Of a stretch of DNA of 64,000 nt, positions 49,663-53,131 are shown piece by piece. The first letter of the stretch is position 1. Each line of letters opens with the position of its first letter. The stretch is taken from positions 434,001 to 498,000 of the forward strand of contig NZ_FZNX01000002.1 of assembly GCF_900188355.1 (NCBI RefSeq), read 5' to 3'. The DNA comes from Lutibacter flavus (GTDB taxonomy: Bacteria > Bacteroidota > Bacteroidia > Flavobacteriales > Flavobacteriaceae). The notes below the pieces were generated by a model. That model was not told the DNA's origin. It saw only the letters and a list, made by a program, of their open reading frames with translations, and did not search any database. A program made the position numbers and the translations under genes.

Positions 49663-49749
49663 TTTATACAAATGTTACAAGAGTTTTATTATTATTTTAA
49701 GGTGTTTTATTATATAAGTTAAACGCTTTATTGTTTTCTATTTAAAATG

Positions 49750-49757
49750 TAACTTTG
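49750..49757 (+). promoter_or_regulatory. leuS promoter -7 element
   Basis: TAACTTTG matches TAnnTTTG, 25 bp before the leuS ATG. Confidence 0.6.
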
Positions 49758-49782
49758 CGCTTTCAAAATTTGAATAGAAAGA

Positions 49783-52700
49783 ATGGAATACAATTTTAGA
49801 GAGATAGAAGCCAAATGGCAAAAGTATTGGGCAGAAAACCAAACATTTAAAGCTGAAAATAAATCTAGCAAACCAAAGTTTTTTGTACTTGATATGTTTC
49901 CTTATCCATCAGGTGCAGGTTTGCATGTTGGGCATCCGCTTGGTTACATAGCATCAGATATTTATGCTCGTTATAAACGTCATAAAGGTTTTAATGTAAT
50001 GCATCCTCAAGGTTATGATTCTTTTGGGTTGCCTGCCGAACAATATGCTATTCAAACAGGACAACATCCGGCAGTTACCACTGAAGCCAATATTAAAACA
50101 TATAGAAAACAATTAGATCAAATTGGTTTTTCATTCGATTGGTCTCGTGAAGTAAGAACTTCTGATCCAAATTATTACAAATGGACCCAATGGATTTTTA
50201 TTCAATTATTCAATTCTTGGTACAATAAAATAAGTGATAAAGCGGAAGATATTGAAACTTTAATTGCTATTTTTTCTTCGGAAGGAAATGCTGCGGTAAA
50301 AGCTGCTTGTGATGAAGATATTGAAATATTCACTGCTAAAGATTGGAAAGGTTTTTCAGAAGAACAACAACAAAATATATTATTAAAATACCGATTAACA
50401 TTTTTATCTGAAACAGAAGTGAACTGGTGCCCTGCTTTGGGAACTGTGTTAGCAAATGATGAAATTGTAAATGGTGTTTCAGAGCGTGGTGGACATACTG
50501 TAGTTCGTAAAAAAATGATGCAATGGAGTATGAGAATTACTGCCTATGCTCAACGATTATTAGATGGTTTAGCTAAAATTGACTGGCCACAACCTTTAAA
50601 AGATTCCCAAACATATTGGATTGGTCGTTCGGAAGGAGCAATGGTAACATTTAAGGTGTTATCAACTTCAACAAATTCTGATATAAGAGATATGAAATTG
50701 TCTTTTAAAGAGTTTGAAAAATTAAAAGAAAACAGATCGAACCCTTCTAAAGTAGAGGGATTATTATGGGATAGATTAAAAAAGAAAAAAGGATCTTCAA
50801 AATTTAGAGCTAAATATATGGTTGGTTCTTTTCTTGTAGATTTTGTTTGTTTTACAAAAAATACAATTGTCGAATTTTCAGGAAAAGAAGACGAAAAAGA
50901 AAGAAGCAAATTTTTTGAAAGCGAAGGTTTTAGCGTTGTTAGAATTTCTCCAGAAGATATTTTAGAAAATATAGATGCGGTTGTTTCAAAAATTGATTCG
51001 GCATTGCAATTTCCTGTAATTTCTAAGGTAAATGAGAATAAAAGCGGAAATGAAATTCCAGTTGAAAAAGATTCAGGAATGGAAATTTCTGTTTTTACAA
51101 CGCGTCCTGATACTATTTTTGGTGTTAGTTTTATGACCTTGGCTCCAGAGCACGAATTGGTTTCAAAGATTACAACTGCCGAGCAAAAAAAGGATGTTGA
51201 GGCTTATGTAAAAGCTACTGCAAAACGTAGTGAGTTAGAGCGTATGGCTGATGTAAAAACCATTTCAGGTGTATTTACTGGAGCGTATGCAAAGCATCCA
51301 TTTTCAGGTGAAAAAGTACAGATTTGGATTGGAGATTATGTGTTGGCGGGATACGGAACTGGGGCTGTAATGGCGGTTCCTTGTGGCGATGAACGTGATT
51401 ATGCATTTGCAAAACATTTCGGATTAGATATTCCTAATATTTTTGAAGGAGTAGATATTTCTGAAGAAGCTTGTTCAGATAAAGAAGGAGTGAAAATTGC
51501 TAATTCAGATTTTTTAAATGGGTTGACCTATAAAAGGGCAATGAAAACCATTATTTACGAAATTGAAAAACGTGGTATTGGTTTTGGAAAAATAAATTAT
51601 CGTTTACGTGACGCTGTTTTTAGCCGTCAACGTTATTGGGGAGAACCTTTTCCAGTCTATTATAAAAATGGTTTGCCGCAAATGATTGACAAACAATATT
51701 TACCAATTGTATTGCCGGAAGTTGAAAAATATTTACCAACTGAAGATGGAAAACCACCTTTAGGAAACGCAGCAGTTTGGTCTTGGGATACTTCAAAAAA
51801 TAAAGTAGTTTCAAATGATTTAATTGATAATGTAACTATTTTTCCTTTAGAATTAAATACAATGCCAGGTTGGGCAGGAAGTTCTTCATATTTCAATAGA
51901 TATATGGATCCTGAAAATACTGAAGAATTTGTAAGCAAAGAAGCGGTTGAATATTGGCAAGATGTTGATTTATATATTGGAGGTAGCGAACACGCAACGG
52001 GACATTTATTATACTCTCGTTTTTGGCAAAAATTCTTGTTTGATAAAGGAATTGTACCAGTTGATGAATATGCTAAAAAGTTGATCAACCAAGGTATGAT
52101 TACTGGAACTTCAGCTTTTGTTTATAGAGTTGAAGGAGAAAATAAATTTGTTTCAAAAGGATTAATTGAAGGATTAAAAGTACAACCAATTCATTCGGAT
52201 GTATCATTTGTAAATGGTTCTGATGAGCTAGATGTCGAAGCCTTTAAAAATTGGCGTGAAGAATATAAAGATGCAGAATTTGTTTTAGAAGATGGTAAAT
52301 ACATATGCGGGCGTGAAGTTGAAAAAATGTCAAAATCTAAATACAATGTTGTAAACCCAGATACTATTTGTGAAAAATACGGAGCGGATAGTTTACGATT
52401 ATTCGAAATGTTTTTAGGTCCGTTAGAGCAATCAAAACCTTGGAAAACTTCAGGAATTTCAGGAGTTTATAGTTTCTTGAAAAAATTATGGAAATTATAT
52501 GTTGTAAATGGTGAGTTTTCAGTTTCTGATGAAGAACCAACAGCAGATGAGTTAAAAACTTTACATAAAACAATTAAAAAAGTAGAATACGATATTGCTA
52601 ATTTTTCTTTTAATACATCGGTTTCTAATTTTATGATTGCTGTAAATGAGTTAACCGCTTTAGAATGTAATAAACGTGCAATTTTAGAACCATTGGCTAT

Positions 52701-53004
52701 TATAATTGAGCCTTATGCGCCACACATTGCTGAAGAATTATGGAATAAATTAGGACATAAAACTTCAGTTTCAACAGAGGAATTTCCGATATTTGAGCCT
52801 AAATATTTGGTTGAAAGTAGTAAAGAATATCCAGTTTCTTTCAACGGAAAAATGCGTTTTAAAATAGAACTATCTTTAGATTTGGGAGTAAAGGAAATTG
52901 AAGAGATTGTTATGGCACATGAAAAAACACAAGCGCAATTACAAGGACGTACTCCTAAAAAAGTGATTATAGTTCCTGGTAAAATAATTAACATTGTTGG
53001 GTAA
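49783..53004 (+). CDS. leuS: Leucine--tRNA ligase with inserted DUF559 nuclease-like domain
   Basis: 1073 aa against about 930-950 in related bacteria. Class I synthetase: HVGH (48-51), KMSKS (848-852), CP1 editing domain with TTRPDT (439-444) and GTGAVMAVP, DERDYAF. Between F290 and I435, at the root of CP1 just after GRSEGAMVTF, about 140 residues are inserted. Residues about 311-408 read as a DUF559 domain: EGLLWDRLKK, KFRAKYMVGSFLVDFVC with D353, TIVEFSG with E364, then FFESEGFSVVRISPEDILENID. The usual DUF559 'DG..H' after the Glu is SGKED, so catalysis may be lost. Aminoacylation and editing motifs are intact. Confidence 0.95.
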   Translation: MEYNFREIEAKWQKYWAENQTFKAENKSSKPKFFVLDMFPYPSGAGLHVGHPLGYIASDIYARYKRHKGFNVMHPQGYDSFGLPAEQYAIQTGQHPAVTTEANIKTYRKQLDQIGFSFDWSREVRTSDPNYYKWTQWIFIQLFNSWYNKISDKAEDIETLIAIFSSEGNAAVKAACDEDIEIFTAKDWKGFSEEQQQNILLKYRLTFLSETEVNWCPALGTVLANDEIVNGVSERGGHTVVRKKMMQWSMRITAYAQRLLDGLAKIDWPQPLKDSQTYWIGRSEGAMVTFKVLSTSTNSDIRDMKLSFKEFEKLKENRSNPSKVEGLLWDRLKKKKGSSKFRAKYMVGSFLVDFVCFTKNTIVEFSGKEDEKERSKFFESEGFSVVRISPEDILENIDAVVSKIDSALQFPVISKVNENKSGNEIPVEKDSGMEISVFTTRPDTIFGVSFMTLAPEHELVSKITTAEQKKDVEAYVKATAKRSELERMADVKTISGVFTGAYAKHPFSGEKVQIWIGDYVLAGYGTGAVMAVPCGDERDYAFAKHFGLDIPNIFEGVDISEEACSDKEGVKIANSDFLNGLTYKRAMKTIIYEIEKRGIGFGKINYRLRDAVFSRQRYWGEPFPVYYKNGLPQMIDKQYLPIVLPEVEKYLPTEDGKPPLGNAAVWSWDTSKNKVVSNDLIDNVTIFPLELNTMPGWAGSSSYFNRYMDPENTEEFVSKEAVEYWQDVDLYIGGSEHATGHLLYSRFWQKFLFDKGIVPVDEYAKKLINQGMITGTSAFVYRVEGENKFVSKGLIEGLKVQPIHSDVSFVNGSDELDVEAFKNWREEYKDAEFVLEDGKYICGREVEKMSKSKYNVVNPDTICEKYGADSLRLFEMFLGPLEQSKPWKTSGISGVYSFLKKLWKLYVVNGEFSVSDEEPTADELKTLHKTIKKVEYDIANFSFNTSVSNFMIAVNELTALECNKRAILEPLAIIIEPYAPHIAEELWNKLGHKTSVSTEEFPIFEPKYLVESSKEYPVSFNGKMRFKIELSLDLGVKEIEEIVMAHEKTQAQLQGRTPKKVIIVPGKIINIVG

Positions 53005-53051
53005 AATAATTTATTGAAGGCTAGACATACTTAACTTTAAAATATCATATT

Positions 53052-53131
53052 TGTCATTTTGAGCGGAGCGAAAAATCTCTTCAAATTAATGAGGATTATT
53101 CAAAAGATTCTTCATTTCATTCAGAATGACA
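53052..53131. repeat. Palindromic intergenic repeat (family B)
   Basis: Ends TGTCATTTTGA (53052-53062) and TCAGAATGACA (53121-53131) are inverted with one mismatch; inside is GAGCGGAGCGAAAAATCTC. Such 'GTCATTT-GAGC-GAGC' repeats are common between flavobacterial genes. It differs in sequence from family A and lies 48 bp after leuS. Confidence 0.82.

Follow-up and report, generated by a model that had tools for sequence, protein, structure and literature searches.

The window, a stretch of 64,000 nucleotides of the Lutibacter flavus genome (contig NZ_FZNX01000002.1), contains on its forward strand the gene leuS (positions 49783..53004), an open reading frame of 1073 amino acids which encodes leucyl-tRNA synthetase (LeuRS) with an additional domain inserted in frame. 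The protein scored 861.8 bits against the NCBIfam model TIGR00396 (leuS_bact; cut-off 548.4). A Pfam search, the check that had been proposed for the insert, revealed besides the usual LeuRS domains a match to PF04480 (DUF559) at residues 315-408, well above the cut-off (E 8.8e-15, 55.0 bits, cut-off 20.6), which assigns the insert to the DUF559 family. According to an alignment of 37 LeuRS sequences it is located in a beta-hairpin of the CP1 editing domain, flanked by the invariant residues F290 and I435; PYPSGAGLHVGHP, TTRPDT and KMSK are invariant in the same alignment. The original prediction of a DUF559 domain within CP1 of a synthetase with intact synthetase and editing motifs was confirmed by these results. 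The LeuRS proteins of nine insert-free Lutibacter comprise 937-946 amino acids and are 127-136 residues shorter than the window protein, in agreement with the surplus of about 130-140 residues over the expected length that had been noted.

The whole insert extends over residues 291-434 (50653..51084, forward strand, like all features given below), as defined by the F290/I435 bounds of the alignment and by empty alleles. It consists of a DUF559 core similar to Vsr and I-Bth0305I (residues 311-408, 50713..51006), delimited by the Pfam match and the predicted fold, and of a left linker (residues 291-310, 50653..50712) and a right linker (residues 409-434, 51007..51084). Both linkers are modelled with low confidence and occupy the positions of the left and right hairpins of active relatives described below. 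Downstream of leuS, at 53053-53131, we observed a stretch GTCATTTTGAGCGGAGCGAAAAATCTC ... GAATGACA which resembles a dispersed inverted repeat. A second, highly variable insertion site of LeuRS is present in other Lutibacter after GTSAFVYR, at about residues 784-800 of the window protein (L078-L085, L099-L103); because of this second site several LeuRS without the CP1 insert reach about 1000 amino acids.

The structural model of residues 291-434 predicts a Vsr-like unit whose ends are flexible (mean pLDDT 77; 85-94 across model residues 31-120). Using Foldseek, the top two solved structures were 3hrl (E 2.7e-6) and 3r3p, the homing endonuclease I-Bth0305I (E 7.7e-4; TM 0.66 by target), so that the predicted fold is that of the EDxHD homing endonucleases; E. 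coli Vsr gave a weak match (E 0.53). A PDB search with a profile of 13 active DUF559 sequences recovered I-Bth0305I (E 2.1e-5). Judged by profile and model, the DUF559 domain is related to this homing endonuclease, and in PMC9403480 a DUF559 gene is likewise placed in the EDxHD family. The model of the full-length LeuRS (mean pLDDT 62.3) was too poor for placing the domain relative to the tRNA. PADLOC returned no match for the window copy; the one active relative analyzed matched a homing endonuclease model (3.8e-7) and, weakly, AbiO (0.0011). The suggestion of a toxin-like element found no support in this analysis, and a toxin or defence module was rejected on the basis of the blank PADLOC result for the window copy.

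Two catalytic residues are retained in the window copy exactly where they had been predicted, the Asp of the VDF motif (D353, 50839..50841) and the catalytic Glu (E364, 50872..50874), as verified by codon check and alignment. The active leuS inserts additionally retain the motif E-(V/I)-D-G-x-x-H. In the alignment the EVDG of these relatives corresponds to EFSG in the window copy, an exchange of Asp for Ser; six residues are missing, the His among them, and RQH is replaced by AKY. The exchange and the subsequent deletion are located at SGKED (residues 366-370, 50878..50892). The earlier reading of SGKED as the remnant of a DG..H motif was correct in substance, and the loss of the Asp and His of the EDxHD catalytic set, with D353 and E364 remaining, makes a loss of catalysis probable.

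LeuRS was matched in all 149 Flavobacteriaceae genomes drawn (among the matches listed), and 16 of these carry a DUF559 insert in CP1: the catalytic motif is intact in 13 and degenerate in three (the window genome G000, G097 and G002). The other genomes usually have a short turn at this position, which rules out an ordinary CP1 extension present in all Bacteroidota LeuRS. When named genomes were scanned for the degenerate form, 71 loci emerged, which belong to Polaribacter, Tenacibaculum, Lutibacter, Flavicella, Urechidicola and unplaced Flavobacteriaceae. The Lutibacter litoralis insert is identical to that of G153, and the L. agarilyticus insert, in the part printed, to that of G150. Sixty-nine of them are located in CP1 of leuS with clear bounds, the other two in open reading frames of LeuRS length. 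The window copy thus belongs to a derived leuS lineage which is shared by Lutibacter, Polaribacter, Tenacibaculum and others. Within 38 Lutibacter genomes (among the matches listed) leuS is degenerate in eight, carries a hairpin-ended insert in eight (including G169, where the contig stops and the left end alone is visible), is empty in 19 and is not readable in three. In four DUF559-less loci (L102, L103, L132, L141) the CP1 turn contains other in-frame repeats (VIASETKQS, VIPAEAGIS, SEMLK.VQHD...SELxSES), and the turn therefore appears to be a collector of repeats.

Both ends of the active inserts are formed by inverted, pyrimidine-rich, REP-like hairpins which are translated together with the domain (FPKGE, LSPTLSEGKG ... 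PPSGARG), and the same layout of hairpin, DUF559 and hairpin also bounds DUF559 in other genes. We searched 150 nt to the left and 200 nt to the right of DUF559 in 56 in-frame loci (frames of at least 300 aa). A strong pyrimidine-rich hairpin was present on one side or more in 43 loci, 21 of which have one at each end, compared to a control rate of 0.016 per 150-nt window in the remainder of these open reading frames. This count omits L002 (the window copy), L043, L045-L049, L051, L052, L067 and L266, and from the in-frame class also the degenerate L042 and L044; it includes L226, L254 and L255, the hosts of which lack identification. In the three degenerate copies tested (the window copy, L042 and L044) no hairpins are left. 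Fifteen of 38 Lutibacter genomes contain the 26-bp end palindrome of the active Lutibacter insert, with up to 23 copies (the reversed control sequence gave none); the palindrome is absent from all eight degenerate Lutibacter genomes. Thirty copies were read in context: 26 lie in frames no longer than 93 aa, which suggests an intergenic position for most, and four lie in frames of 330-760 aa, namely leuS of G159, G163 and G169 and a class I synthetase of G180. The latter, which we take to be IleS (L297, G180:C45), contains an in-frame hairpin pair with the ends of the leuS element and no DUF559.

The DUF559 inserts are not confined to leuS. The 30 full matches in long frames of the family survey are distributed over LeuS (16), RecG (5), HemD (5), MetH (3) and HisD (1), with one host of each non-LeuS kind verified using Pfam. 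The loci fetched from the phylum, taken from the matches listed and no census, added restriction-modification and methylase hosts (HsdR, HsdM, an Eco57I-type methylase, Type ISP, an N6/N4 methylase), metabolic enzymes (methylmalonyl-CoA mutase, HisF, HemF, a CobB/CobQ-like amidotransferase of the PurL type, MetH) and also UvrD helicases, N-formylglutamate amidohydrolase, an M23 peptidase and the second LeuRS site. The restriction-modification hosts HsdR, HsdM, Eco57I-type and Type ISP are represented by L224, L228, L230, L235, L243, L244, L251, L262 and L269. The window genome itself contains a further in-frame DUF559 in metH (L001, G000:C4:230481-230801), which is located directly before the conserved GKILLATVKGDVHDIGKN, looks catalytically intact and has hairpin ends. 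It also contains a broken stand-alone DUF559 of a different subfamily (L003, 1300-1830, G000:C4), flanked by CCCCTAGCCCCTCTCAAGAGGGG palindromes and by genes which are presumably of the glycosyltransferase type; the three copies of the palindrome pattern of this genome are all located around this broken gene. Plasmid records gave 37 matches, all below 60% identity, with no Bacteroidota among the ten genera named. In the titles and abstract openings of mostly non-subscription literature we found no published report of an in-frame DUF559 in LeuRS or the other hosts. The window insert is real and well supported, and it is part of something wider than a single leuS case: DUF559 occurs in frame in many housekeeping genes, and by their sequences the related copies seem to be mobile. 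The survey supports one of the original proposals, that of a mobile nuclease trapped in an essential gene, both by catalytically intact, hairpin-ended copies at the identical site in relatives and by the sister DUF559 lineages in frame in many other genes.

In the DUF559 tree of the family set the seven host-gene groups require six changes, the minimum possible, and the sequences group by host gene and not by genome; the active leuS group alone needs five changes because other groups nest inside it. The phylum tree with 87 sequences gave the same picture, with 12 host-gene groups and 11 changes, again the minimum possible. MetH inserts of four families form a common branch (support 96/97) with the M23 peptidase insert among them, and HsdR inserts of three families form another (100/98). 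Exceptions are the leuS insert of G098, which is located outside the leuS group, a UvrD insert which falls within that group, and the second-site LeuRS inserts, the two of which fail to pair. A single leuS clade is not rejected in the phylum set (p 0.306), nor is a genus-only clade of the degenerate copies (AU p 0.347); L043 is absent from both trees. These two results fit a quite different history, in which DUF559 entered leuS once, was then inherited with frequent losses or passed on when the whole gene was transferred, and persists as a tolerated spacer that never homed. Insert and host distances are also correlated (Pearson 0.71 for active and 0.69 for degenerate copies), so much of the inheritance may be vertical or due to whole-gene transfer, and in close pairs of the degenerate lineage the synonymous divergence of insert and host is similar.

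In the LeuRS core tree, however, the insert state changes 21 times over 79 rows (best tree), and for the label 'empty' the starred branches force 15 changes; an error of one or two in these counts is possible, as the partial L146 was left out and L098 (G159), an active insert, was scored empty from masked bases. A single old insertion would demand many clean losses. It is also at variance with the synonymous divergence of the active copies: the value of the insert lies below those of all host windows of equal size in 82 of 190 pairs and above them in two. For the six close active Lutibacter copies it lies below in seven of 15 pairs with none above, and for degenerate pairs in nine of 45 with three above. 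The closest pair with and without insert (G180 and G179) shows a local divergence peak, 0.129 near the site versus 0.028 far from it (ratio 4.59). Two other such pairs gave ratios of 1.86 and 1.84 and another close pair 0.76, most of the 11 close pairs being near 1; G180 and G181, which both carry the insert, gave 1.58, and across all pairs there is no general excess of divergence near the site (medians 0.95-1.07). Together with the sister lineages, which occupy fixed positions in other genes across several families, these observations make one old insertion without homing rather improbable. The grouping of DUF559 by host gene across families and the patchy occupancy of leuS form the pattern expected of site-specific homing, but of unspliced elements. 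From these comparisons of sequences movement of the inserts is likely, short of proof.

REPtrons consist of a Y1 transposase gene between two inverted REPs. By analogy, a Y1 transposase of the RAYT/IS200 type might move the hairpins in trans with DUF559 as a passenger, and the in-frame cases would be those tolerated by selection. A Y1_Tnp match was detected in all 15 palindrome-bearing Lutibacter genomes and in five of the 23 others (Fisher p 1e-6), a co-occurrence that is confounded by kinship, as most high-copy genomes belong to one clade; the window genome gave no Y1_Tnp match. The DUF559-less hairpin pair within the class I synthetase of G180 and the other in-frame palindromic repeats at the CP1 turn of some DUF559-less genomes fit this explanation as well. 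The association of the palindrome with DUF559 presence was not significant (13 of 26 versus 2 of 12 genomes, p 0.08). On the other hand, the CCTTTCC-type hairpin which bounds the leuS DUF559 was seen at none of the 22 Y1 loci read out of 64 matches, several of them truncated by a contig end, and the Y1 transposase as the flanked gene, the REPtron arrangement, was rejected on this basis. At least four palindrome copies are present in seven of the eight genomes with a hairpin-ended leuS insert versus two of the 30 others, and untargeted insertion is not expected to give host-gene-specific DUF559 lineages. We consider transport of DUF559 as REP cargo unlikely, although it is the strongest competitor of the homing interpretation.

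The insert could also be removed from the product in the manner of an intein or intron. A precedent for DUF559 in such a context is the 717-aa protein L043 of a different Flavobacteriaceae genome (G109), which contains a true intein (PF14890) with DUF559 (PF04480) as its nuclease; this case also speaks for a homing-type origin of the family's inserts. Pfam detected no intein domain in the window protein (E <=1) or in the 19 host proteins scanned. Intein splicing needs Asn and Cys/Ser/Thr at the ends; the insert lacks these residues at its ends, and its frame stays open. An Rfam search of the leuS region (49700..53100) gave no match at E <=1, and at six other loci none except a Flavo-1 RNA outside the insert. 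An intein was dismissed as no Hint-type family was found, and a group I or II intron as no ribozyme RNA was present at the site. Removal of the insert is thus extremely improbable, and the domain would remain in the mature LeuRS.

For the degenerate copies we compared the evolution of insert and host. The dN/dS analysis comprised 64 loci, five of the 69 leuS CP1 loci being left out. The median dN/dS of the insert is 0.208 versus 0.089 for the host, and none of 376 close degenerate pairs reached a value of 1 or more; within Lutibacter the values are higher (0.22-0.78 in the 24 pairs printed). The constraint on the degenerate insert is real, yet weaker than that on its host, and purifying selection may merely reflect the need to fold and to spare LeuRS. 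Six residues near the former active site (D, E, K, D, E and R) are the same in every one of the 64 loci. One of the two patterns used to find the 71 loci was [VI]EFx[GA]K[EQK]DE, and the conservation of the motif and the absence of the His are partly due to this construction; the conserved D and R are independent of it, and the His is also absent from all ten copies found without the motif. The degenerate core is more basic than the active one (median net charge +1 versus -2; 64 and 19 sequences), and in the same sequences the stretch after LW has a median net charge of +5 versus +1. We read this as a probable loss of cleavage with a binding surface retained. A conserved derived form with a dN/dS of about 0.2 in 64 loci is consistent with the domestication that had been proposed.

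Taken together, we favour, with a probability of roughly 60%, the interpretation that the window insert is the immobilised and domesticated descendant of a homing-type element which is kept as a domain of LeuRS. The ancestral element would have consisted of a DUF559 nuclease frame of the EDxHD/Vsr-like type between two inverted REP-like hairpins, open throughout, and because of the single open frame it could reside in a protein gene without splicing. Active forms may cleave or nick leuS alleles without an insert at the CP1 hairpin, whereupon recombination would copy the element into them; every host gene has a DUF559 lineage of its own. In the lineage of the window the hairpins have eroded and the catalytic Asp and His have been lost, while LeuRS has kept the domain as a separate unit. 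Its simplest role would be that of a basic appendage to the editing domain which binds nucleic acids and perhaps touches the tRNA.

The EDxHD homing endonucleases, represented by I-Bth0305I and the DUF559 family, share sequence profile and predicted fold with the insert. The members described in PMC3943268 are encoded by free-standing genes or reside in group I introns or inteins, whereas the LeuRS domain lies in frame within an essential enzyme next to no splicing element and, in the window copy, is devoid of the catalytic Asp and His. The active relatives resemble the Rickettsia palindromic elements, palindromic selfish DNA found in frame in unrelated protein genes (PMC10969869), in carrying an in-frame palindromic element; the window copy has no hairpin, and the Rickettsia elements are about 150 bp long with a short peptide, in contrast to the nuclease domain between the hairpins of the leuS element. 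With the REP/RAYT systems they share a gene between inverted REP-like hairpins and the dispersal of these hairpins in the genome, but the flanked gene is DUF559 and not a Y1 transposase. The RAP domain of FASTKD4 has a Vsr/I-Bth0305I-like fold in which the Asp is kept and the His lost; it binds RNA, and its authors regard it as no nuclease (PMC11879112). By analogy the window domain perhaps also binds RNA, as in the RNA-handling role among the original proposals, although FASTKD4 is a eukaryotic mitochondrial protein and RNA binding by the LeuRS domain is putative. VsrA of Caulobacter, which contains DUF559 and was compared with Vsr (PMC12907096), is a separate chromosomal gene proposed to encode a repair nuclease, in contrast to the in-frame LeuRS domain.

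Homing nucleases are thought to enter conserved genes by means of self-splicing introns or inteins (PMC3943268). The same nuclease family seemingly reaches leuS, metH, recG, hemD and restriction genes while its inserts stay in the finished protein. As a tentative extension, for which we would not yet claim even odds, Bacteroidota may harbour a third lifestyle of homing nucleases, in which hairpin-bounded DUF559 elements occupy fixed sites of conserved genes and are carried unspliced, and in which one leuS lineage would have been disarmed and turned into a permanent RNA-contacting proofreading domain. Since empty, active and disarmed leuS alleles are present within one genus, the route by which a selfish element becomes an enzyme domain is directly testable. 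The unspliced DUF559 inserts show which insertions essential enzymes tolerate and map natural permissive sites in these proteins.
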